Shown here piece by piece: positions 13,073 through 56,279 of a stretch of 64,000 nucleotides of DNA. The DNA comes from Rhizophagus irregularis (lineage: Eukaryota; Glomeromycota; Glomeromycetes; Glomerales; Glomeraceae). Both the position numbers and the translations under genes were made by a program. Every line of letters begins with the position of its first letter. Within the stretch, counting starts at the first letter, position 1. The stretch spans positions 248,001 to 312,000 of the forward strand of contig NC_089437.1 in NCBI RefSeq assembly GCF_026210795.1, given 5' to 3'. The notes below the pieces were generated by a model. It had not been told where the DNA came from and searched no databases. It saw only the letters and a program-made list of their open reading frames with translations.

Positions 13073-13258
13073 CACCCCAGCCAAATGATCGACATAGTTT
13101 ATAAGCTGGATGTTCGTGCGCTAACTTATAGCTTATAAACTGCCCATGGGCATATGTAGCCCACGGGATCTGATTGGTTCAGAATGAGGACAATAATGTC
13201 CCCGTAATTATGGACTATGTTGCGCCTTCAGTTTAAAAATGAGGACAATAATGTCCTC
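13073..13258 (+). repeat. Left terminal inverted repeat of the KDZ element
   Basis: It matches the reverse complement of 31,424-31,609 without a mismatch for 186 bp. The first difference is cctcA against cctcG within an array unit. It contains an inner palindromic tract (agtttataagctggatg, then cttatagcttataaactg) that can form a hairpin. Confidence 0.9.
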
Positions 13259-14660
13259 ATAATTATGGACTATGATGCGCCTTATTCAGCTTAAAAATGA
13301 GGACAATAATGTCCTCATAATTATGGACTATGATAGTTCTTTAGTTTAAAAATGAGGACAATAATGTCCTCGTAATTATGGACTATGAAGTGCCTTCAAT
13401 TTAAGAATGAGGACAATAATGTCCTCGTAATTATGGACTATGATAGTCCTTTAGTTTAAAAATGAGGACAATAATGTCCTCGTAATTATGGACCATGATA
13501 GATCTTCAGTTTAAAAATGAGGACAATAATGTCCTAATAATTATGGACAATGATGTGCCTTCAGTTTAAAAATGAGGACAATAATGTCCTCGTAATTATA
13601 GACTATGATAGTCCTTTAGTTTAAAAATGAGGACAATAATGTCCTTGTAATTATGGACTATGAAGTGCCTTCAATTTAAGAATGAGGACAATAATGTCCT
13701 CGTAATTATGGACCATGATAGATCTTCAGTTTAAAAATGAGGACAATAATGTCCTCGTAATTATGGACTATGACAAGCCTTTAGTTTAAAAATGAGGACA
13801 ATAATGTCCTCGTAATTATGGACTATGATAGACCTTCAACTTAAAAATGAGGACAATAATGTCCTCGTAATTATGGACTAGTATGAAGTGTCTTCAGTTT
13901 AAAAATGAGGACAATAATGTCCCTGTGATTATGGACTATGATAGATCTTCAGTTTAAAAATAAGGACAATAATGTCCTAATAATTATGGACTATGAAGTG
14001 CCTTCAATTTAAGAATGAGGACAATAATGTCCTCGTAATTATGGACCATGATAGTCCTTTAGTTTAAAAATGAGGACAATAATGTCCTCGTAATTATGGA
14101 CAATGATAGATCTTCATTTTAAAAATGAGGACAATAATGTCCTAATAATTATGGACAATGATGTGCCTTCAGTTTAAAAATGAGGACAATAATGTCCTCG
14201 TAATTATGGACTATGACAAGCCTTTAGTTTAAAAATGAGGACAATAATGTCCTCGTAATTATGGACTATGATAGACCTTCAACTTAAAAATGAGGACAAT
14301 AATGTCCTTGTAATTATGGACTAGTATGAAGTGTCTTCAGTTTAAAAATGAGGACAATAATGTCCCTGTGATTATGGACTATGATAGATCTTCAGTTTAA
14401 ATATAAGGACAATAATGTCCTAATAATTATGGACAATGATGTGCCTTCAGTTTAAAAATGAGGACAATAATGTCCTCGTAATTGTGGACTATGATAGTCC
14501 TTTAGTTTAAAAATGAGGACAATAATGTCCTCGTAATTATGGACTATGATAGACCTTCAACTTAAAAATGAGGACAATAATGTCCTCGTATTTATGGACT
14601 ATGATGTGCCTTCAGTTTAAAAATGAGGACAATAATGTCCTCGTAATTATAGATTATGAT
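13186..14660 (+). repeat. Left subterminal array, ~27 palindromic units
   Basis: I counted 27 units of 55-58 bp. Each carries the hairpin GAGGACAATAATGTCCTC, or a near match, followed by gtaattatggactatga and a variable linker ending tcagtttaaaaat. Linker variants recur in the same order: the stretch from about 13,772 (gacaagcctttag, then gaccttcaactt, then ctagtatgaagtg) is repeated from about 14,214, a higher-order period near 440 bp that indicates unequal exchange within the array. Likely transposase-binding sites, by analogy with subterminal repeats of other DNA transposons; this is inference. Confidence 0.92.
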
Positions 14661-15319
14661 AGTCCTTTAGTTTAAAAATAGCTCTCATAATTACAGACTA
14701 TATTGGACCTCTCATTTAAATTATATTCAGCTTCTGTATTCATATATAGATTATAGGAACCTCCTAATTAGTAAATGGACAATCATAGTGTCTTTATAAT
14801 TATAGATCTCATTTAAAATAATAACAGTAGTATACTCATATAACTTACTATTAACAGGTTATATTATAAATAGCATGTTCTTTTTGTTTAAAATGTATTT
14901 TCATATTTGATTGTCTATTTAAACCACTTATGGACTGTTCCCTGACAGGACATTTTTCCAATAACCTAACGCTGGCCGTTTGATCACGTGTTCATGCATA
15001 ACCTGCATAACACTGGCCAAATCTTTCAGGCAAATGTAATCCCGTCAGGAAATTGTGCCATAACCATTTAAACTAAAAGGTAATAATATGGCAGAAAATT
15101 TAGAGAAATAAAAATATATTTTAATTGCAATATTTTTTTACCGCTTTAAACTCCTAATCAAATTGTTAGAAAAGTTATTTTTAAAGTAAAATAGGTTTCT
15201 TCTATTTATTTCAAAGTTGTTATAATAAATATTATATCATATATGACTAATTTTTTTAAGTATCAAAATATTTGTCAGATTTATTAGATATTCAATTCAT
15301 ATTGCTCCTTTTGGATCGA
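14661..15319. other. Inner edge of the array and spacer to the transposase gene
   Basis: Decayed array units (agctctcataattacagac) run to about 14,830. A CACGTG-containing stretch lies at 14,990. The 3' flank of the transposase gene follows. No other gene was seen. Confidence 0.5.
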
Positions 15320-18300
15320 TTATACTATTTTATAATCCATACTTTCACCTTCTGTTATTATTTCTTCTTCACAATCTTTACTTTTATCTACTATTTCCCC
15401 TTCATATTCTATACATTCTTCATTATCACAAATTTCTAATTCAGTTAAATTTTCTGCTAAATCTCCTTTTAAAAGATTATCTTCCTCAATCTCATTAATT
15501 AAATCATAAATTGGAACATCTACTACTTGTACAGTATTATTCACTTTGTAATTTTCAATTTTGTTTAAAGCTATCTGACAATTTTCTAAATTTTTACTTA
15601 CATTTTTATAATATTTCATCAAAATACAAATCATTCCATACTACAAACAAATTTTTTATTTAGATTATTAATAGCTTGTTCAAAATAATTACAAGATAAA
15701 AATGAATAATACTTACATTTTTTGTAGTTTTTTCATTAAATTGTTGTAATTGTTGTAATTTATTTTCAATTTTAATTTTATAATTCATCCAGAAATCATA
15801 TAATCTTTTTAATTCTTGCACAATTAATGATATTTCTTCTTTAGACCGTTGTAAATTATTAAAATTTTTAATTGAATTGAATATAACTATTCGAGGTATA
15901 TTATCCATTTTATCATTAATTGATATATCTAATATTTGCCAAAAATCTGACGTATGATTAACTATTTCATTAAATATTGCTTTTGGATAATCTTTACAAA
16001 ATGAATTTTCTTGTGCAAGTAATCTGAAATATTCATAATATGAAATGTTTATTTCAATTTGTTTTGAAATATCTTTAATACTTGATTTAATTTTTAATGT
16101 TAACTTATGACCTAATAAAAATAAATATGGTTAAATAATATTTTAATAAATAAGTTAAGATTACAAATATATATAATTACCTATATGGTCTTGATTATAT
16201 AATTGTGAATTTTTAAATATATATTCATTACGAAATTTTCTAAGCTTATCAGAAATTAAATCCAAATTACGTTCACAATAATCATGAAAATATTTGGAAT
16301 ATATAGGATTAAATGGATTCCATCTTTTTGATTCAGGTATATCTAAATCTGATTCACATTTTTCAACTTTTTTTATATATAATGAGCGAGATCTTTTTAA
16401 TGATTCCAACTGTCTTTCAGAGTTAGCTTTTGATATTTCAATCCTAAAAAAATAATATTAGTATTTAGTAATATTAAAATAATTATTACTTGAATAAAAT
16501 TAGTACATACTCATATCGATGTAATTCCATTAGGTTTAAGAAATACAACTCTTTTCCAATTAAATGTTGCCTAAAAACTAAAAATCTCATATATTAAAAC
16601 TAATTTTTAAAAAATTAGCATAATAAAATACATAATATTTACCAAAATTGGATTCATACTGGCACTGAATATAATAAAGTATTTTACTTTCATCAATTCC
16701 ATGCATTTGTTCCATTTCTTTTAATATTTTTACTGATACATTCATTATTTTATAAGCATTTTTAAACCTTTTAACTAAGTTACATGCTGATATAAAATAA
16801 AAATATAAATTAAAATATAAATATTTTAAATTATCATAAATTTAATTGAACATTACCTAAATTACTAATCATTTTTCTACTTATATGCTGAATTCCTTTT
16901 TCTAAAATATCCAATCTATGATGTGGTCTCATATATCTTGTTGTAGAAGAAAAGCGTCCTAAATATGACCACAGTCTTTCTAAACTTTCCCCATCAGTTA
17001 ATCCTATGGAATTACAAGCCCTTGGGTGGTAATTTAATTGGCATTTCATTGAATGTGCATAGGCATGAAATATTGAAACACACCAATTAAATCGAGATTT
17101 GAATGGAAAAAGTCTACTTTCACTTTTTTCTACATGTGAATGAAGATTGCATGCAATATCATATAAGACAATAAATGTAGAAGAATCTTCATAAAACATA
17201 TTATGTAAATCTGATAAAATATATTCTGCTAAAGAAAATCTATAAAAATGTAATTATATAATATGAATAACTAATGTTAATATCAAATGTTAATATTACA
17301 ATAATATATAAATTACCTTTCACCAATTCCTTTTAAATTAATAAATTTTAAAGGAATGCCGTGCCTACATGTACTTCCAAATATTCCTGTATCGTCCAAA
17401 TAATTGGATTTAAGGTTTGCTTTTGTTTGATTAGCCGCTTTAAAATGGCTGTCACATACATTTATTTGCTTAATGAAATAATAAATAATTAATAATTAAC
17501 AAATTAAAATAATAAATGAAGTTAAATAAACAACAAATATATATATAGAATACTTACCGCATTATTATTATTTATATTTAATGTATTTAATGAACTTAAA
17601 TTAATCGAATTTTGTACCCATTCATCATATTTATTTTGGTTTAAAATAAATGATTCTTCAATTATTCTTTCACCAATATTAGAACCAGCACTTTTCATTC
17701 GTTTAAGTTGAAAATTAGCATCCAATGCAATTATAATTTTAGAGTTTTTCTCTTCTGGCTATAATTAAATTTGTTTATTAATTCAAAATATAATGTAAAA
17801 AAGTTTTTAAAAATATAAATGGGAAGTAAATCAAGCAAAAAATAAAGTTACCTGTGGACAAGCTGGACAATTAAATTGTGATTTACTACTAAATAACTTA
17901 TTAATAGTATTTTCAATCATAGTTTTTAATCCTAAATATTGATGAAAAGCAGATTTAAAAAGATAATATATGTTCTAATAATAATAAAAACATATTAGTA
18001 AACTATATAACATTAATATAATGAAATTTTTTAAAAACTTAACTCTAGTTATATCTTGATCAGAGAATAATGATTCTAATACTCGACAAAATGAAAGATA
18101 TGATACATGTGCTTCGAGTAATAATTCTTGATAAATATCAAATAATTCAAATGAGAAAGCAACTTGTGGATTTATAGGGGTGGAAGGAAATAATTTATGC
18201 CTGATTAATGTTTCGACCAAACCTTCACAAGTTGGAAATTTTGCTTTAAATATTCCTATTTAATGCAATATTTATTTAATTGAAAATTTTATTAAAGTAT

Positions 18301-22570: not shown

Positions 22571-23089
22571 TTAATTTTAATTAAGTTGTTATATAAATAT
22601 TATATATTTATTATGAAACTGAATATTAAACTTTTAATAATTATTTTTATATTTATTATAATCAAATAAAAAAATTCTGATTTTTCGATTTTTCCAATAA
22701 CTTTTATTACGTCATATTTTGTATTGATTGTCTGATTTCACATGGTATAAAAGTAAATTTGGTTTCGGCTTTTAATGATTATCCTAATTAACGCTAATTA
22801 AATTGTTAAAATTCCAATTTTATTTTAAGATTTCTTTGCAAATATTTCAGTACTCTACACCTGGCTTCTATCAACTATTTATAATATAATCCAGTACCAT
22901 CATTTATTATAGCTAAATTTGAGATAATCAAAATCTTTACTTGTATAATAAAACATGAGACAATAGAGAATACTGTATAAATGAAATATAAATTTAAAGT
23001 TTTTCAAAGGGTGCCATTAAACAAAGAAGGTAGACACTTATAGGAGATAGAGCTTTTTCTTTAATTTAATTGTTTTAAAGAAATGTTTC

Positions 23090-26000
23090 TGAAATTTCTT
23101 ATTTTTTTTATAGAGATGCCAGCACGCAAAAAATAATAAAGCTCCAGATATTAGTGGGAATGTGGGATTCCATATGACTATTGGAAATATTGTAAAAATT
23201 TAACAAAAGGTTTTTGTTAGGAATAATTAATGAGGGTATGGAGTGTGGAGTAATTTTAGGAGAATGGAAAAAAGGTCTAATTTATCCGACTGGAATCAAG
23301 ATTTGAAATTGATACAACCAATTACTTTAATAGAGACAGCGAGAAAATTATTTTTGAAAATTCTGGTAAATGACTAAGTAAAATTCTAACGAAGGAAAAA
23401 TTTTGATGGGGACAAATTATGAAAGCTTTAAAAAATGATTTTATATGAGAAAGATTTTATGGGTTAAAAAATATTTACGATCTGCAACTTGAAAGTTTAA
23501 GTAAGAATGTTATTTATTTAGCAAATGGTAATGAAAAATTGAGTACTTTATTTAAAATCAAGATAATGCAAGAATAAATGAGATTGTGGACCGCAGTGTG
23601 CATAGGAGATATAAATGGTAAAGCAATAAAAGGACGCAATTGTTAGATTAACGATGCAATTAACTTGTTGAAATCAGAAACATGAGTTTATGCAATCATG
23701 AGATTTTAGACGAAAATGCAGGGCATAAGATTAAAGGTGGTAATATAGAGATAATAGATCTGTTACCTGATTCAGAAATTTAAAGAAGTGCATTATCACG
23801 AAGAAAGAAAGAAATTCTCTTTTTAGAACAATTATTGGAAGCAAATCAATTTAGAATAATGAAGTGGAAACATGTTTTATAGGAAATGATTTGAGTTTTA
23901 GAGGTAAAATACCTAATTGGTTTAAGATTGTAGAAAACGAAGTGAGAGAAAATAAAGAGATGAGAAATTTAATATAAAAATAAAAATTTTGATAGAAATA
24001 ATATTCATATGAAAATTTTTGATGAAAATGAGAAAGTGTCAAGAAATAATTTAATAACATGGAATGATGAAAAAGGATTTCCTATCTTTGGAGAAGATAG
24101 GAAAAAATCAAGAAATAAAAATTATAAGAGGATAGGGATACATTGGATCATGATAAATGAGAATATAAATATAGATGATTCACCTACTTTAATTAAATGT
24201 AAGGGTTGTAAAAAGAATATAGGTAAAAAAAAATATGAATAAAGAGAGTAAAATTGAATGTTTAATTTATTTAAAATGAAGAAAGTAGGATTATTAGAAA
24301 ACGGAACGAAGGTTGGAATATCAAACCTTATGAGACATTCCGAAATATTAAAAATAAATGATCTGGTGGAAAAATATTTAAGAGAAGAATAAAAAGAATA
24401 AAGATTTAATACAAGAATTGAGATGATAGATAATTTGGTTAATACAAATAAAAATCTGATAGAATTTTAAAGAATAGTATTTTAGAGAAAGACGATTTTA
24501 GTTTTAGGAGGAAGGTAAATTTTTTAATGATAGAGGTTATGAAACTAAAAAGTAAAGTTAAGGAAAATGGGAAAAAATCGATTGAATATTTAGTAATGTG
24601 GAAGATAAGACATGAAGAATTCGTTACAAAGAATGAGATTAATTTTAACAGAAAATTTAAAGTATTGTTTGAGAATGAATACAAAATTTTATTAAGATGT
24701 TTGATAATAGGTATCATTTTATTAAATAGTAATAGCGAATTAATTTTAGGTTTAGATGGGAAATTTTGTGAATTATCAAAGAATTATAGAAAATTTAAGT
24801 ACAAGACGAAGGTTAGATAATGAATACAATATGGAGTTATTGGTAATAGAAAAGTTTTGATCGCAAATGAATATAAGAACGATTTCGTGTACGGAGAAGG
24901 AGGCGAACGATATAAAAATATGTAAAGAAGAAATGGATAAATTCTATTGCAAATGAAAGAAAGCAAAAATGAAACATATATGATAGACTTTAATGAAGGG
25001 GGATTAGTGACCAACGAATTCAATTTATATTGGAAATATAATTTGATTTTAGGAGATTTAAGGGGATGGCGAAAGAAAGTTTCAGAAGTGATATGGAAGA
25101 ACGAAATTTTAAATAGTAAAAAGATTGAAGATTTATTTTCCTATAATTACAGAAATAAATTCGATTGGGTAAAGTCTTTAAAATTTATAAGCAATGGAAC
25201 AAATTTACATTTTGGCAATGTGCGCAAGAGGACACAAAAGAAAGAGCGTATAAAATTAAAAATTGGATAAAAGAATTACTAACATATAGTGTACTTTTTA
25301 AAAGGAAAATATTTGGATTGATAATGATACCTGCCCAAGATGCAATAAGGAAGAAGAAGATTGGTATAATTAATGGAAATGTGAGTGTAATGAATTTTCT
25401 GTAAGAGAAATTATAGAGAATTCGATAAAAAGTTGGAGGATGAAAAAAAGATTGATGATTCGACAATATTATGAGATATTAATAGGATTTTGTTCAAGTA
25501 TTAGAAAAGCCTACAAGAATTTTATTAGGTTTTAGTAGAGAATGGGAGATGCTTAGAGGATTATATAATAACAATTTCAATCTTATTTTGAAGAAAAAGA
25601 ATACAATATGATTATAGAAGAATTGTGGTGTTTTTGTTATGAGAATATAAGATTGAAAATATGGGATAAAAGATGTAAAGATGTAGTGGCGATAGAAGAA
25701 AAGAAGGATTTAAAGAAAGGTGAGAAAAAGAAACGTAAAAAAGATCAAAAGAGCAAAAGGAGGAGGTAAAGCGAGAAAAAATACAAAACAGCAGATAATA
25801 TAGAAAAAGATAAAGAAAAAATATAGAAAACAATATTAGAAATAATGGAAGGTATATCAATTACGAAATCATGGGGGTATTAAAATAAATTAGTATAAAA
25901 AAATTTTTTAGTATAAAATGCTTTTAGTTATAGAAGATAATTAAAATTTTTAATTATTTTTTAGTGTTTTAAAAATTTTTTTATGTAATCTTTTTGTAAT

Positions 26001-26470
26001 TGATAATAAATGCATTATTAAAATTAAAAAAATAAAAAAAAGGGATAAGTGGATTATAGGTGATGGAAGTTGGAAAAGAGGTGTGATAATTCTGGGCGAG
26101 TGGTCACTAATGAAAGTTTCGTTTGGTTTTAAACACATTTCCGTATAATGGAAGTTACTTGTAATCTTACTTTAGTTAAATTTTAGTTTTCTGTTAGGTC
26201 TAGAGTTTTTATATATGTTATGTGTGAAAGTTTTTTGTTTTTCTTTTTTTATTTTGTATTGTTTCTTTTGGGTTGAGTGACATCGATTATATATTGTTGT
26301 TAGTTCTTTTTGCACGCTCAGGTATATATAATTATATATGCTCTTTGTATTTAAATAGACTGGTTTGCTATAGGGTCATGTGCTTTTTCACATGCCTCTA
26401 GGTATTTCTGACGTTAATATGTATATCTATGGTATTGTTTAATAAAGAAATGCAGTGCAAATTTTTTTTA
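23090..26470 (+). pseudogene. Dead LINE-type retroelement inside the KDZ transposon
   Basis: The forward strand carries scattered frames of a reverse-transcriptase ORF. EWKKGLIYP and LKLIQPITLIETARKLFLKIL (about 23,260-23,370) match the RT strand preceding the catalytic core in non-LTR elements. Further on, FNLYWKYNLILGDLRGW, WKNEILNSKKIEDLFSYNY, DTKERAYKIKNWIKELLTYS and a C-terminal zinc knuckle near 25,325 (DTCPRCNKEEEDW) are legible. Many stops and frame changes make it dead. The 3' region has T-rich stretches and ends at about 26,440 with AATAAAGAAATGCAG and an A/T tail. The inverted relic at 60.4-62.4 kb is the same family. Confidence 0.75.
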
Positions 26471-26499
26471 AAAAATAAAATATGGAAGGTTGTTATAGA

Positions 26500-27300
26500 A
26501 ATGGGCCAAAGACCTTAGTAGTCTTAACAATAAGAAAGAAATTATGTTATTAAAATAATTAGAACAGCTATTTGTAACTAATATAAGTTAACATCAATTG
26601 GCCAATTTTGTTTATGATAATTCGTAATGAAACAAGTGTATCAAAATCATCAACTAATGCGATGGATACTCAAATTAGAGCTTTTAGGATCAAAAAGTTT
26701 CTTTAAACATTGCCAACATATGAAATATTATATCAAAGGAAAGTTTTTGGAACTTCTTCAGAGAAATGTATAAGATGTAATGAAGAAACAGAAACATGGG
26801 ATCATACTACTATATAGTAGCATTGTAACAAGATTCTTCTATTAATTTATGGATAGATGCAGTCAATGTAATTACAGAAGATAATAAAGAAAGAGAAAAG
26901 CTTTACAACATAGTAATGTTAAATCAAGATTATTTACATTAAGAATTTACTATATGAGATAATGCGTGGACTTTCTAACATCAAGATTTGGCAATATAAA
27001 CATTGTAAAGTAGATGATTCAAAGATGTTGAAGATATGTTGTGACTTATATTTGACGTATATATATGAAAAAATTTGGAAAATGAGATGTCAAGAAGTAG
27101 TAAGTTCTGAGAAGTCTCAAAGCATAGGTAAATTGGATTAAAAGATAAGGGGATTCTTGATTAGAGAAGGATAAAAGAAGTGATAGAGAAACAGAGGAGT
27201 TAAGTATAAATAATAAAAACAAAAAAATTCAGAAAATAGTAAAATTATTAAAAAAATAAAATGAGAAAATATTAGAAATGGTAATGAGTTAAATACCCTA
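26500..27300 (+). pseudogene. Second, shorter LINE relic
   Basis: It reads MDTQIRAFRIKKFL, a stop, then TLPTYEILYQRKVFGTSSEK and CIRCNEETETWDH. This is the C-terminal region with zinc knuckle of the same broad LINE family, here from a different copy. Stops interrupt every frame. It directly follows the tail of the LINE at 23,090-26,470 in the same orientation. Confidence 0.6.
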
Positions 27301-27566
27301 ACAGTGAATAAGTAAGCTTTCTAAAAATTCAGTAAAGAGAAGCAATTTGATAAGTTAGTAATTAAAAGTATGTCACCAAAACTTTGAATCATATTTTTTT
27401 CGTTATTTATTGTACAAATGATTGTTTGTTTGTTTCAGGTGATTATTAGCCAATCATAATTCTTGATCAAAATAGCTGACAGCCAATTAAAATAACATTT
27501 TCATGCTTTTTTCATCACAATCTTTTCATCTTTTTGATCATTTAATCTCTTTACACCCATCTCATA
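27301..27566. promoter_or_regulatory. Upstream region of the 320-aa KDZ gene
   Basis: Short AT-rich spacer with a pyrimidine-rich stretch (catctttttgatcatttaa) just before the ATG at 27,567. No clear TATA box. Confidence 0.3.
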
Positions 27567-30056: not shown

Positions 30057-31500
30057 TATAGGGACATTATTGTCCTAATTTTTAAACTAAAGCCCAACAT
30101 AGTCCATAATTATGAGAATATTATTGTCCTCATTTTTAAACTGAAGGGTCTACCATAGTCCATAATTATGAGGACATTATTGTCCTCATTTTTAAATTGA
30201 AGGCGCATCATAGTCCATAATTATGAGGACATTATTGTCCTCATTTTTAAGCTGAAGGCGCATCATAGTCCATAATTATGAGGACATTATTGTCCTCATT
30301 TTAAACTGAAGGCGCATCATAGTCCATGATTACGAGGACATTATTGTCCTCATTTTTAAACTGAAGGTTTATCATAGTCCATAATTACGTTAGGACATTA
30401 TTGTCCTCATTTTTAAACTGAAGGTCTATCATAGTCCATAATTATGAGGACATTGTCCTCATTTTTGAACTGAAGGCGCATCATAGTCCATAATTACGAG
30501 GACATTATTGTCCTAATTTTTAAACTGAAGGTTTGTCATAGTCCATAATTACGTTAGGACATTATTGTCCTCATTTTTAAACTGAAGGCACATCATAGTC
30601 CATAATTATGAGGACATTATTGTCCTCATTTTTAAACTGAAGGCATGTCATTGTCCATAATTATGAGGACATTATTGTCCTCATTTTTAAACTGAAGGTC
30701 TATCATAGTCCATAATTATGAGGACATTGTCCTCATTTTTAAACTGAAGGCGCATCATAGTCCATAATTACGAGGACATTATTGTCCTCATTTTTAAACT
30801 GAAGGTTTGTCATAGTCCATAATTACGTTAGGACATTATTGTCCTCAAGGCACATCATAGTCCATAATTATGAGGACATTATTGTCCTCATTTTTAAACT
30901 GAAGGCATGTCATTGTCCATAATTACGAGGACATTATTGTCCTCATTTTTAAACTGAAGGCATATCATAGTCCATAATTACGAGGACATTATTGTCCTCA
31001 TTTTTAAATTGAAGGCACTTCATAGTCCATAATTACGAGGACATTATTGTCCTCATTTTTAAACTGAAGGTTTGTCATAGTCCATAATTACGTTAGGACA
31101 TTATTGTCCTCATTTTTAAACTGAAGGCGCATCATAGTCCATAATTACGAGGACATTACTGTCCTCATTTTTAAACTGAAGGCATGTCATTGTCCATAAT
31201 TACGAGGACATTATTGTCCTCATTTTTAAACTGAAGGCATATCATAGTCCATAATTACGAGGACATTATTGTCCTCATTTTTAAATTGAAGGCACTTCAT
31301 AGTCCATAATTACGAGGACATTATTGTCCTCATTTTTAAACTAAAGGACTATCACAGTCCATAATTATGAGGACATTATTGTCCTCATTTTTAAACTGAA
31401 GGACTATCATAGTCCATAATTACGAGGACATTATTGTCCTCATTTTTAAACTGAAGGCGCAACATAGTCCATAATTACGGGGACATTATTGTCCTCATTC
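30057..31500 (-). repeat. Right subterminal array, ~27 palindromic units
   Basis: Counted 27 units, in the orientation opposite to the left array: gaggacattattgtcctc, then atttttaaactgaagg, then a short variable linker, then catagtccataatta. Three recurring variants are a cgtTAggac junction (30,389; 30,553; 30,828; 31,090) and a shortened gaggacattgtcctc (30,446 and 30,720). Blocks of linkers repeat in order (for example 30,420-30,560 against 30,690-30,840), again showing higher-order duplication. Equal copy number at the two ends is notable. Confidence 0.92.
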
Positions 31501-32600: not shown

Positions 32601-33573
32601 TTGATGATAATAATCTAGAAATAAAGAGAAAGGTTATCCTATGATCACTCAGATAAATGAGTTATTGAATTACTATGCTGATATCAGAACGCTCATCCAC
32701 GCTTACTCAGGCACATATACCAGATTTCATCTAGACTCACAAAGAATCCTGACAAATAAGCTTATAAGCAAATTTGGAAAACCTTAGACATATGCATACG
32801 TGAGCAGACCCATGAACTAAATCGTAAAAAAGCCTTCATTGCAATTAAAGCCTAAACTTTTTAAATTTAAACACAACAACTCACCAAATGTACCAAATGT
32901 GATAAATAAAATTAAATCCGATTTCTTGTGCAAGGAGAATAATAATCTAGAATAAAGAGAAAGGTTATCCTATGATCACTCAGATAAATAAGTTATTGAA
33001 TTACTAGGCTGATATCAGAACGCTCATTCACGCTTACTCAGGCACATATACCAGATTTCATCTAGACTCACAAAGAATCCCGACAAATAAGCTTATAAGC
33101 AAATTTGGAAAACCTTAGACATATACATACGTGAGCAGACCCATGAACTAAATCGTAAAAAAGCCTTCATTGCAATTAAAGCCTAAACTTTTTTAAATTT
33201 AAACACAACAACTCACCAAATGTACCAAATGAGATAAATAAAATTAAATCCGATTTCTTGTGCAAGGAGAATAATAATCTAGAATAAAGAGAAAGGTTAT
33301 CCTATGATCACTCAGATAAATAAGTTATTGAATTACTAGGCTGATATCAGAACGCTCATTCACGCTTACTCAGGCACATATACCAGATTTCATCTAGACT
33401 CACAAAGAATCCCGACAAATAAGCTTATAAGCAAATTTGGAAAACCTTAGACATATACATACGTGAGCAGACCCATGAACTAAATCGTAAAAAAGCCTTC
33501 ATTGCAATTAAAGCCCAAACTTTTTAAATTTAAACACAATAACTCACCAAATGTACCAAATGTGATAAATAAA
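32601..33573 (+). repeat. 332-bp direct repeat in three copies
   Basis: Landmark aggttatcct at 32,631, 32,962 and 33,294 gives periods of 331 and 332 bp. Copies 2 and 3 are nearly identical; copy 1 is slightly more diverged and the third lacks the last part. Each contains gctgatatcagaacgctc and acatacgtgagcagaccc. Non-coding. It adjoins the small ORF at 32,252 and may derive from its 3' region. Confidence 0.9.
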
Positions 33574-51567: not shown

Positions 51568-54500
51568 ATGGCTCTCAATAATGATAAAGGTAATAACATA
51601 TGTATGGTATAAATATTTAATACAATTAGAATTCTAATATTTTTAAACAAATTTATAATATAATAAAACTAGTTTCTAGTAATATTGAATTTGAAGGAAG
51701 CAGCACTAAAGAATTTGAAGGAAGTGGCTCTGAGGAATTCAAAGGAAGTGACTCTGAAAAATTTGAAGAAAGTAGTATCAAGGAATATAAAGGTATATTA
51801 AACATGCTAAAATATTAAAATATTATTTTTAAATAGTACTATCTATAATTATACCTTACATAAGATATAAACATAATTTAAACTAACTATTATATAAAAA
51901 TAATATTAAATAATTTAGCTCGTAAGTTAGTAGATTATTTTATAATTGAATAATAATAAAATTACTTATCATTTTTATTACATTTATGTAATTAAATAAT
52001 TTTATTTGATGATTAATATAATACTATAGTCAGTAAGTTATTAGTTATTTAAATCTTTATTTCTTTACTTTATTTATTTTACATAATATTTAAATAACTA
52101 AATTCTTTAATTAATTAATTATTTAATAATTAATTGTATTACAGATGGTAAGTTATAAGATCATATTTATTTATTTAATATTTTATATAACTCAACTAAT
52201 TATATTCTTAATTTAAATAACTAGATTGTAAGTGATATATTTAATTTACAGTAAATACTTTTGTATAATACTTATATTTAACTAATAATTAATTAATAAT
52301 ATTAGGGTGTAAGTTATAGTAAATATCTATATTTTTATTACTTATATAATTTAAAGCTAACAAATTCTTTATCTAAAAATTATTTTTTAGTTAGTAAGTT
52401 ATAAGTAATTCTATTATTACTTATTTATATAATATTTACATATAATTTAAACTAACTAAATTCTTTATTTAAAAAAATTATAAAAATAATGTAGTTCGTA
52501 AGTTATTTATTTAATTCTATTATTACTTATTTACATATAATTTAAACTAACTGAATTCTTTATTTAAAAAATTATAAATATAATATAGTTCGTAAGTTAT
52601 TTATTTAATTTTATTATTACTTATTTATATAATATTTTACATATAATTTAAACTAACTAAATTCTTTATTTAACAAATTATTAAATAATAGAATGTAAGT
52701 TATTTGTTTAATTCTATTATTACTTATTTCATATAATTTAAACTAACTAAATTCTTTATTTTAAAAAATTATTTAATAATATAAATATAGTTCGTAAGTT
52801 ATTTATTTAATTCTATTATTACTTATTTCTATAACATTTACATATAATTTGAACTAACTAAATTCTAAATTCTTTATTTAAATAGATGGTAAGTTATAAG
52901 TTATTTATTTAATTATTTTATTACTTATTTATATAATATTTACATATAATTTTAACCAAATAATTCTTTATTTAAATAATATAGAGTGTAAGTTATTTAT
53001 TTAATTCTATTATTACTTATTTAAATAATAATTACATATAATTTAAACTAACTAAATTCTTTATTTTAAAAAATTATTTAATAATATAGGGAGTAAGTTA
53101 TTTATTTAATTTTATTAATATGATATATTCATATAATTTAATTCTTTATTTAAAAAATTACTAAATTTTTTATTTAACAAATTATGAAATAATATAGAGT
53201 GTAAGTTACTTATTTATTTAATTCTATTATTACTTATTTATATAATATTTACATATATAATTTAAACTAAATAAATTCTTTATTTAAATAGATCGTAAGT
53301 TATAAGTTATTTATTTAATTCTATTATTACTTATTTATATAATATTACATATAATTTATTAAACTAATTAAATTCTTTATTCAAAAAATTATTTAATAAT
53401 GTAGCAAGTAAGTTATTTATTATTACTTATTTATATAATAATTGCATATAATTTAAACTAACTAAATATCCAAAAAATTTTTTAACAATATAGAGCGTAA
53501 GTTATTTATTTAATTCTATTGTTACTTATTTTATATAATATTTATATATAATTAAACTAACTAAATTCTTTATTTGAAAAATTATTTTGTAATTTCTTTT
53601 AGGTGGTAATTATAAGTTATTTTTTAATTCTATTATTTATTTATTATATAATATTTACATATAATTTGAACTAACTAAATTCTTTATTTAAATAGATCGT
53701 AAGTTATAAGTTATTTATTTAATTCTATTATTACTTATTTATATAATATTTACATATAAATTGAACTAAATAAATTCTTTATTTTAAAATTATTTAATAA
53801 TATAGGGAGTAAGTTATTTATTTAATTCTATTATTACTTATTGTTATAATATTTACATATAATTTGAACTAAATTAATTCTTTATTTTAAAATTATTTAA
53901 TAATATAGAGAGTAAGTTATTTTATTTAATTCTATTATTACTTATTGTTATAATATTTACGTATAATTTAAATTAACCAATTTCTTTATTTAAAAAATTA
54001 TTTTGTAGATGGTTAGTTATTTATTTAATTCTATTATTACTTATTTGTATAATATTTACAAACTAATTTCTTTATTTAAAAAATTATTTTGTAGATGGTT
54101 AGTTATTTATTTAATTCTATTATTACTTATTGTTATAATATTTACATATAATTTAAACTAACTAATTTCTTTATTTAAAAAATTATTAAATAATATAGGA
54201 TGTAAGTTATTTATTTAATTCTATTATCACTTATTGTTATAATATTTACATATAATTTAAATTAACTAATTTCTTTATTTAAAAAATTATTTTGTAGATG
54301 GTTAGTTATTTATTATTTATTTAATTCTATTATTACTACTTATTGTTATAATATTTACATATAATTTAAACTAACTAATTTCTTTATTTAAAAAAATATT
54401 TTGTAGATGGTTAGTTATTTATTATTTCTATTATTACTTATTGTTATAATATTTACATATAATTTAAATTAACTAATTTCTTTATTTGAAAAATAAATAA

Positions 54501-56279
54501 TATAGGGTGTAAGTTATTTATTTAATTCTATCATTTACTTATTGTTATAATATTTACATATAACTTAAACTAACTAATTTCTTTATTTATTTAATAGATT
54601 GTAAGTTATTTATTTAATTCTATTATTACTTATTTATATAATATTTACATATAATTTAAACTAACTAAACTAACTAAATTCTTTATTTAAATAGATCGTA
54701 AGTTATAAGTCATTTATTTAGTTCCATTATTACTTATTTATATAGTATTGAATATAATTTAAACTACTAATTAAAATCTTTATTTATAAAAATTATTTAA
54801 TAATATATAGCTTGTAAGTTATTTGTTATTTCTATTGTTATATATTTTATAAATATTTAATTTAATTCTTTCATATAAAATTACTGTTACTTTAGTTGGC
54901 AAGTTGTGAAATATGAGTTATTATTATATATATTTATATAAAAACTAAGATATATATTATATTAAATTTCTATTTAAATTTTAGTGTAAGTATTGATTTT
55001 AATCTTGAATTTTAATGCAATTTTTAATAAAAACTTCCATAATAATTTTAATTATTTAAATATATAGATTTGGAAAAAGTGGAAATACAATTATGGATAA
55101 TTTTATTTGGGAAAAAAATTTAAAATGGATTCCTTATGATAAATTTAGAAATATTGAATATCTTGATAAAGGAGGATTTGGTACTATATACAAAGCTATT
55201 TGGTTCTATGGTAATAAAGATAATAAAGTAATCCTTAAATGTAATAATAATTTAAGTGAAAATTTAAATGAATTTTTAAATGAAGTATGAAAATATATTA
55301 TTATTTTTTTAATTTAAATTATAATTTAATTCACTTATATTAATATATTGTTATTTTATAGTGGAAATATCATGAAAGTTGTTTAGATTCATATGATATT
55401 ATTTATTTTTATGGTTTTACAAAAGATCCAGATACTTTGAAATATATGGTGGTAATGGATTATGCAAACAAAGGTAATTTAAGAGGAAACTTAACAAGAA
55501 TAATCAAAAGAGATTGGAATCAAAAATTGTATATGTTATTTGAAATTATTTATGGACTTAATGGCATACATAGCCGAGATCTTATTCATTGTGATTTTCA
55601 TGATGGTAATATTTTAAATCATAATGAGAATAAAATTTATATTAGTGATTTAGGATTATGTAAACCTGTAAAATCATATTTGAAAAAATATGATATTTGT
55701 GGTGTTATACCATTTATGGCACCTGAAATTTTAAGAGGCAAATCTTATACTCCAGCTAGTGATATATATAGTTTTTCTATGATTATGTGGGAATTTTCAT
55801 CTGGAGTACCACCATTTAATGATAGAGAGCATGATATTCAACTTAGTTTAAGTATTTGTAAAGGTGAACGTCCTGAAATTATTGAAAATACTCCACAATG
55901 TTATGTAGATTTGATGAAAAAATGTTGGAATGAAGATTCATCAAAAAGACCATCATCTAAAGAAGTGTTGGATATTATTGGTAAATGGATTTTTCGTCCA
56001 GATGAAGTGAAAGTTGAAGATATTAATGAAGAATTAAAATGCAATATTATGGAATTTATAAATGCACCAATTGGGCATAACAATAGTCTTACTACTAAAT
56101 CTCATCCACAGGCATGTTATACAAGTCGCTTACTTGATTTTACTAGTAAACAATTGAATGAAATTCTTGAAAGTGAAGTTTCACAAGCAAGTGTAAAAGT
56201 AAATGAAATGCTAGTAAGTAAAGATTTGGATGATTATATAGTTAATTTTAAGTCATTAGGTATGCAATATAGTATATAA
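51568..56279 (+). CDS. Protein kinase with array of 3-nt microexons (456 aa, 36 exons)
   Basis: Exon 1 51568-51589 (MALNNDK); exon 2 51673-51792 (acidic Ser/Glu repeats EFEGSSTKEFEGSGSEEF); 31 exons of 3 nt and one of 1 nt (listed under 51793-55067); then 55068-55284 and 55362-56279. Total 1371 nt, in frame. The microexon-encoded stretch runs ALNDWFILQF to YYPFVFGKSGN with no stop. Kinase domain from about residue 105: glycine loop LDKGGFGTIY (111-120), VILK (K136), HCDFHDGN (D229, N234; HCD replaces HRD), DLG (247-249, for DFG) and MAPEIL. Catalytic Lys, both Asp and Asn are present, so it may be active. It is close to the large Rhizophagus kinase expansion, where sequences just before the kinase end in SGN-xx-D-x-FI, as here; this supports the final junction. 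If microexons are skipped, the shorter start at 55,093 is the alternative. Confidence 0.75.
51793..55067 (+). repeat. Tandem array of ~33 introns separated by 3-nt microexons
   Basis: Each unit of 80-116 bp has a GTAAGTTA donor, an AACTAACTAAATTC branch-like site, an A/T tract and an acceptor AATATAG. Microexons: 51919 CTC, 52030 TCA, 52145 ATG, 52225 ATT, 52306 GGT, 52391 TTA, 52495 TTC, 52589 TTC, 52692 AAT, 52791 TTC, 52886 ATG, 52985 AGT, 53090 GGA, 53198 AGT, 53292 ATC, 53405 CAA, 53494 AGC, 53603 GTG, 53696 ATC, 53806 GGA, 53909 AGA, 54009 ATG, 54095 ATG, 54199 GAT, 54298 ATG, 54407 ATG, 54506 GGT, 54598 ATT, 54695 ATC, 54811 CTT, 54896 TTG (GC donor), 54985 T (1 nt). Exon 2 ends in phase 1; the triplets keep phase 1; the single T shifts to phase 2, exactly what the next exon needs. 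Four donors are GTTAGT and one GTAATT. Splicing itself is not shown by DNA alone. Confidence 0.85.

Follow-up and report, generated by a model that had tools for sequence, protein, structure and literature searches.

We describe a protein kinase gene of the fungus Rhizophagus irregularis in which the part of the protein that follows an acidic N-terminal repeat and precedes the kinase domain is, with high probability, encoded one codon per exon and spliced in order. The gene lies in a stretch of 64,000 nucleotides (nt), referred to here as the window (assembly GCF_026210795.1, contig NC_089437.1, bases 248001-312000 of the forward strand). Related kinase genes elsewhere in the genome have arrays of the same construction before a kinase exon, and across 34 arrays not one of 580 junctions between adjacent triplets gives a stop codon in the phase at which the upstream exon ends.

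A kinase gene model with 31 three-nucleotide exons

The first-pass annotation of this DNA had proposed 31 consecutive 3-nt exons together with a single 1-nt exon, and we found all of them again, the triplets in the form AG|NNN|G(T/C). The resulting plus-strand model has 36 exons (22, 120, 31 x 3, 1, 217 and 918 nt), and its coding sequence of 1371 nt is one open frame of 456 codons in which the sole stop is terminal. Exon 1, whose 22 nt (51568-51589) read ATGGCTCTCAATAATGATAAAG, ends in phase 1; three paralogues (L012, L013 and L014) have a counterpart that differs at one or a few positions, and L047 has a more diverged one. Exon 2 (51673-51792; 120 nt) encodes acidic 8-residue repeats (EFEGSxSx), is conserved in paralogues and in the deposited proteins P0001 and P0002, and also ends in phase 1. 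The array follows at 51919-54898. Its first triplet is CTC (51919-51921) and its last TTG (54896-54898), with starts at 51919 CTC, 52030 TCA, 52145 ATG, 52225 ATT, 52306 GGT, 52391 TTA, 52495 TTC, 52589 TTC, 52692 AAT, 52791 TTC, 52886 ATG, 52985 AGT, 53090 GGA, 53198 AGT, 53292 ATC, 53405 CAA, 53494 AGC, 53603 GTG, 53696 ATC, 53806 GGA, 53909 AGA, 54009 ATG, 54095 ATG, 54199 GAT, 54298 ATG, 54407 ATG, 54506 GGT, 54598 ATT, 54695 ATC, 54811 CTT and 54896 TTG. Read in phase 1, the array yields the peptide ALNDWFILQFHEWKYPKRDRKNDGYDGYYPF, and the gene product has the predicted tryptic peptide ALNDWFILQFHEWK.

Phase 1 is kept through all triplets, and a T at 54985, the 1-nt exon, then sets the frame of the first kinase exon (55068-55284; FGKSGNTIMDNFIW...GGFGTIYKA...VILK), so that the phase bookkeeping of the first-pass annotation holds throughout. 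The last exon (55362-56279) carries the kinase motifs HCDFHDGNIL, DLGL and APE and has the stop at its end. The kinase domain matched PF07714 at 142.2 bits (family cut-off 23.1), and the translation contains GGFG, VILK, HCDFHDGN, DLG and APE, which we take to be kinase catalytic motifs. The closest proteins are other Rhizophagus irregularis kinases.

The 33 introns of the array region (51793-55067) measure 77-126 nt and without exception end in AG; 32 start with GT and one with GC (54899), and 26 start with GTAAGT. A donor and an AG had been claimed for every intron, which is correct; the claim that each also contains ACTAAC was overstated. An exact CTAAC occurs in 15 of the 33 and a variant alone (CTAAT, CTAAA or TTAAC) in 14, which makes 29 introns with a branch-like motif from this loose list and four with none. 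The motif TAGNNNGTAAGT has 27 copies in the window, 24 in the array and three in the second copy described below (0.28 expected; none of 100 shuffles had as many), whereas TAGNNNNGTAAGT has a single copy (0.40 expected).

The partial second copy that had been noted in the window is real, although truncated. It aligns at 35859-34895 on the minus strand and comprises exon 1, exon 2 and six triplets (ATC TCA ATG GCT GGT TCG), after which the sequence is unrelated. By eye the six triplets read DLNGWF in phase 1, and three of its exons carry TAGNNNGTAAGT. No second kinase exon in the window was among the genome matches listed for the kinase query.

The arrays are a trait of a kinase gene family

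We searched the genome (146.7 Mb in 32 contigs, the window lying on the contig that we number C9) with the first 151 residues as query and obtained at least 151 matches among the best candidates. About 1.5 kb of upstream sequence was scanned at each of the 29 best-scoring loci besides the window (L010-L038; the window gene is L009). At all 29 an array of 3-nt exons precedes the kinase exon, with 8 to 15 triplets each within that distance. With the window included, the 30 loci contain 358 exact GTAAGT donors; the exon ahead of the donor is 3 nt long in 308 cases, 1 nt in 44 and of other lengths in six. Among the 44 1-nt cases, 26 coincide with the position of the final 1-nt exon and 17 come from an AG nested in an AGN triplet, which leaves one that fits neither class. 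A 1-nt exon candidate stands before the kinase exon at 26 of the 26 loci, window included, with a recognised kinase acceptor (the acceptor was unrecognised at 4 of 30); its base is A in 24, T in one and G in one. In L010, L012 and L014 there is a possible second 1-nt exon (AG-T-GTAATTTT) about 31 nt past the first, and the last splice step may have alternatives.

When more upstream DNA was taken in, we counted 11 triplets in L010, 30 in L013 and 37 in L012, compared with 31 in the window. L011 has at least 53 uninterrupted triplets, with its start lying further upstream, L014 has 18 recognised triplets with one gap of 332 nt, and L047 with L043 forms a run of 56 consecutive triplets in which one spacing is 144 nt. 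The edges of the arrays are conserved while the middles vary in length and codons. All five complete arrays of the window gene's subfamily (window, L010, L012, L013 and L014) begin CTC-TCA-ATG-ATT-GGT, and the last two triplets of 30 arrays are CTT-TTG in 22, CAT-TTG in four, CTT-TTA in two, and TTT-TTG and ATT-TTG in one each.

A genome-wide search for the paired pattern at 3-nt spacing gave 2,349 matches (1,121 and 1,228 by strand) compared with two for the reversed control; at 6-nt spacing there were eight and none. The CTT...TTG pair gave 62 matches against none reversed, some of which are array starts by eye. From the matches listed for the 3-nt pattern we took four arrays without an obvious partner among the listed kinase exons (C1 4.55 Mb, C1 2.29 Mb, C2 0.02 Mb and C2 0.33 Mb). 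Downstream of each, a kinase exon of a second subfamily lies within about 1 kb. Single-codon arrays are thus a genome-wide trait of this kinase gene family, found in every member examined.

Adjacent triplets avoid stop codons in one phase

In phase 1 a codon straddles two neighbouring triplets that lie about 95 nt apart, taking its first base from the end of the one and its other two from the start of the next. A non-coding array would place no constraint on the order of its triplets, and we therefore permuted that order within arrays (34 arrays with 635 triplets and 580 junctions between neighbours). The shuffled arrays had 24.7 +/- 3.7 phase-1 stops compared with the observed zero; none of 50,000 shuffles reached zero, and the lowest count was nine. 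The first 30 arrays alone gave 0/428 (15.3 +/- 2.9 expected), and a separate set of four, made up of three of the four arrays followed downstream and an array at C1 1.38 Mb, gave 0/150 (9.6 +/- 2.3 expected). The depletion is specific, as AA, AG and GA following A, C or G were not depleted in the first 30 arrays. When junctions were read in reversed order, stops appeared at 11/428 in the 30 arrays and at 11/150 in the separate four, and junctions between a triplet and the third one after it had stops at 11/340. This frame-specific avoidance indicates that the triplets are very probably spliced in and translated.

Phase 2 had 66 stops in 580 junctions (60.9 +/- 4.8 expected), with no depletion, and was rejected as a reading. 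In phase 0 there was one stop in 635 triplets. Triplets that start with TA or TG are nearly absent altogether (2/635), which makes stops uninformative in this phase and bears out the caveat, raised in the first-pass annotation, that a lack of stops in the triplets' own phase is weak evidence. The phase-0 reading was rejected for its poor codon usage and because it does not join with the flanking exons. We also discarded a TAA triplet in L014 as an overlap artefact, lying 4 nt off the true exon and in no adjacent pair. It was dropped from the counts for 34 arrays and is still present in the 470- and 458-unit sets used below and as one of the two phase-0 stops of the 30-array set. In the ~1.5-kb upstream stretches, the first two letters of a triplet are AT, TT, GG or CT in 311 of 395 cases.

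Further evidence for translation

Codon usage, scored against the kinase exons of the family, is a weaker test than the stops. The log-likelihood ratio of synonymous choice to a uniform model was +3.0 in phase 1, which is neutral, and -276 and -228 in phases 0 and 2, both very poor. Third letters in phase 1 are T in 60% and C in 2%, compared with 53% and 3% in the kinase exons. Spliced models of L010, L012 and L014, followed 200 nt into the kinase exon, stayed open, with the reservation that the L010 model borrows exon 1 of the window and the L014 model holds recognised triplets alone. The 30 triplets of L013 are open by themselves. The proposal that the triplets form a run of coding exons with one codon each is supported mainly by the avoidance of phase-1 stops over 34 arrays, and also by these open paralogue models.

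The array starts appear to keep residues while the triplets differ. The window starts A-L-N-D-W and the second copy D-L-N-G-W; L049 gives A-L-T-N-W from CTC TTA CAA ATT GGT and L048 gives A-F-E-N-W from CTT TTG AAA ATT GGT, whereas L047 starts A-L-G-R-K, without the W motif. The paralogue and second-copy starts were translated by eye and presume that exon 2 ends in G, which was left unchecked for L048 and L049. R, F, Y, D, N and W abound in the array peptides, and M is absent; that this composition serves recognition is a guess.

Single-codon exons probably vary more than the introns around them

In a profile of 470 units, chosen by AG and GTAAGT and hence silent on the conservation of these signals, the first and third exon letters had an entropy of 1.89 and 1.99 bits and were the most variable printed positions; the middle letter (1.39 bits) was not unusual. 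We also compared near-identical units (458 units, pairs within one array, 150 flanking bases). Many pairs were gapped, and we relied only on those with four gaps or fewer. Among such pairs with up to five mismatches the triplets differed in 7 of 18, which per site is 8 to 17 times the intron rate, and among pairs with six or more mismatches the ratio of triplet to intron rate was 4 to 6; pairs share units and are not independent. The single-codon exons thus likely change faster than the introns around them, which would invert the usual pattern. Positive selection is not established by these ratios, because homogenised introns could produce the same values and the pairs are non-independent. Near-identical units in L020 and in L035 suggest block duplication.

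Alternative explanations

Several observations weigh against translation of the arrays. The stop test left out 21 of 601 adjacencies, those spaced outside 60-145 nt, as well as units whose donor is more than one base off GTAAGT. AGN triplets account for 29 of the 635, and their inner AG could yield a 1-nt exon instead. We removed the junctions touching them, since the second AG leaves the acceptor ambiguous, and still found 0/525 phase-1 stops (17.1 +/- 3.0 expected; 0 of 20,000 shuffles). Codon usage favours phase 1 over the other phases but fits it poorly, with third letters G in 26% and A in 12% compared with 6% and 38% in the kinase exons. Deposited kinase models miss or misread the arrays: in P0001 exon 2 and the kinase exon are linked by 'DG', and P0015, which is tagged OCT59, begins inside the kinase exon. 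P0041 ends ...RLILSSKFGKSGN, which by eye agrees with a phase-0 reading of some of the triplets (CGA TTG ... ATC CTT TCG) in L051, the best genomic match to this protein; its N-terminus and that of the similar P0012 look like partial triplet chains in phase 0. Gene finders seem to have taken up parts of the single-codon chains in a phase that our tests do not support. Finally, residues 40-84 share three words with no protein among 5.8 billion, the outcome predicted for a variable, unannotated segment but also for one that does not exist.

Every subset of triplets keeps the frame and each unit has its own splice sites, and the first-pass annotation had pictured triplets skipped in many combinations to give a combinatorial linker before the kinase. 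Productive skipping would have selected against stops at skip junctions too, yet stops occurred at 21 of 529 skip-one junctions (4.0%), which is about chance (24.7/580, or 4.3%, in shuffles) and contrasts with none at adjacent junctions. We consider skipping improbable on this ground and take complete, ordered inclusion to be the rule. Nor do we favour the view that the triplets were once coding, or are coding in a few paralogues, and that most present arrays are decaying pseudogenes. The frameshift in exon 2 of L013, the truncation of the second copy in the window and the stop found in a minority of the listed kinase matches all point that way; most listed kinase exons are, however, free of stops, and the 580 junctions of 34 arrays would hardly have stayed clean in phase 1, which renders general decay very improbable.

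The last alternative denies that the arrays code at all. The units are tandem repeats and might make up a non-coding satellite, intron-like in appearance only, or one large intron removed whole, recursively, with loss of the triplets, and translation would begin at 55093. It would agree with the several deposited models that begin at the MDNFI methionine in the kinase exon; a direct joint of exon 2 to the kinase exon is also out of frame, which fits a start inside the latter. Against it stand the frame-specific avoidance of stops across triplets about 95 nt apart, the exactness of the spacing (the 3-nt exons ahead of 308 of 358 donors, with the 1-nt cases mostly explained) and the conserved array ends, and we hold it to be the least probable of the alternatives.

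A proposed model of ordered single-codon splicing

If the triplets are included in order, as we propose, each unit of about 95 nt would contribute a short GT-AG intron and one exonic triplet, and the introns would be removed in order. The triplets would join their neighbours in phase 1, and the 1-nt exon would then restore the kinase frame. As 3 nt cannot hold two assembled spliceosomes at once, splicing would presumably proceed stepwise by intron definition in the manner of recursive splicing, and every completed joint would present NNN|GTAAGT as the donor for the following step. Arrays could lengthen and shorten when whole units are exchanged unequally, with whole residues gained or lost without a frameshift, and the outcome would be a variable linker or binding segment particular to each paralogue.

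A bolder interpretation, which we offer tentatively and think rather less likely to be right than wrong, is that the family makes up a system, spread across the genome, by which proteins are altered one codon at a time. Similar introns would serve as a frame-safe substrate for unequal exchange while the single-codon exons diverge faster, and the kinases would carry hypervariable, aromatic- and arginine-rich segments (11 to >50 residues) resembling recognition loops, at the cost of dozens of successive recursive splicing steps per transcript.

Should transcripts confirm the ordered inclusion of triplets, exons holding a single codon could follow one another up to 56 times within a coding sequence, and a family of dozens of genes or more would be built in this way. 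The lower limit of exon recognition would be probed repeatedly by splice sites 3 nt apart, and a tandem intron repeat would offer a frame-safe route to lengthening and varying a protein. It would also explain the segment that is missing or garbled in the deposited kinase models we examined.

Other features of the window

About 27 copies (13183-14679) and 26 copies (30062-31499) of a 55-bp unit with GAGGACAATAATGTCCTC lie in opposite orientations ~15 kb apart, and between them is a fragment of a KDZ transposase (16834-17199, minus strand; PF18758, 105 bits). Together these probably represent a large transposon with satellite-like inverted ends. Most of the region 23000-27500 shows a strong plus-strand purine skew (GC skew up to 0.62, AT skew mostly ~0.2); the single open reading frame checked there had no Pfam match, and the region may be a decayed mobile element. 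A 332-bp unit is present in about three copies with 98% matches at 32607-33573. Rfam and tRNA scans of the window gave no matches.

Comparison with known systems

In a search of the open-licence literature, no tandem array of single-codon exons appeared among the papers listed. Recursive splicing and stwintrons, so far as the available accounts go, share with the arrays the stepwise loss of abutting introns and an acceptor whose joining regenerates a donor. Ratchet points leave zero nucleotides in the mRNA, whereas here 3 nt separate the acceptor from the donor and behave as if read in frame. Stwintrons are nested; the arrays would instead keep three nucleotides at each step.

That exons of 1 and 3 nt can be spliced in is reported in the available parts of papers on Arabidopsis APC11 (PMC4674806), plant VPS55 (PMC8831610) and Fusarium CYP621A (PMC12940212), a fungus thus being among them, and a microexon in this size range is described for RPS24 (PMC12686416, PMC11162997). 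As presented there, these microexons are isolated or have two to three neighbours and do not form long arrays. For the 1-nt exon of Arabidopsis, intron definition and recursive splicing were proposed in combination (PMC4674806, in the portion available). In R. irregularis itself, the available text of the assembly paper counts 2,533 kinases and refines the annotation with Nanopore reads, with no mention of microexons (PMC10234402); that of the SP7 effector paper deals with other genes (PMC11333574).

The bicycle genes of aphids, as given in the accessible sections of PMC9168663, evolve rapidly and have many small exons (~17 on average), nearly all of one phase, and a megacycle gene has >100 microexons. 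They are putative effectors, and those sections describe neither codon-sized exons nor a repeat of intron plus codon. The nearest likeness is to the microexon genes (MEGs) of Schistosoma, which in the available text of PMC10526429 are made up for the most part of very short exons whose lengths are usually divisible by three, so that an exon can be included or lost in frame. The window gene shares this make-up, with 31 of its 36 exons 3 nt long. MEG exons measure 6-81 bp (3-81 in another statement of that text) and most commonly 15 bp, their introns range from 100 to almost 5000 bp, and their products are secreted (PMC10526429). By contrast, the array exons are all 3 nt long, with up to 56 in a row between similar introns of ~95 nt, and the window gene encodes a fungal kinase (PF07714), which places it outside the trematode family of secreted proteins. 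With a strong frame-specific test and weaker ones behind it, the window gene family would appear to be an extreme form of the microexon gene.

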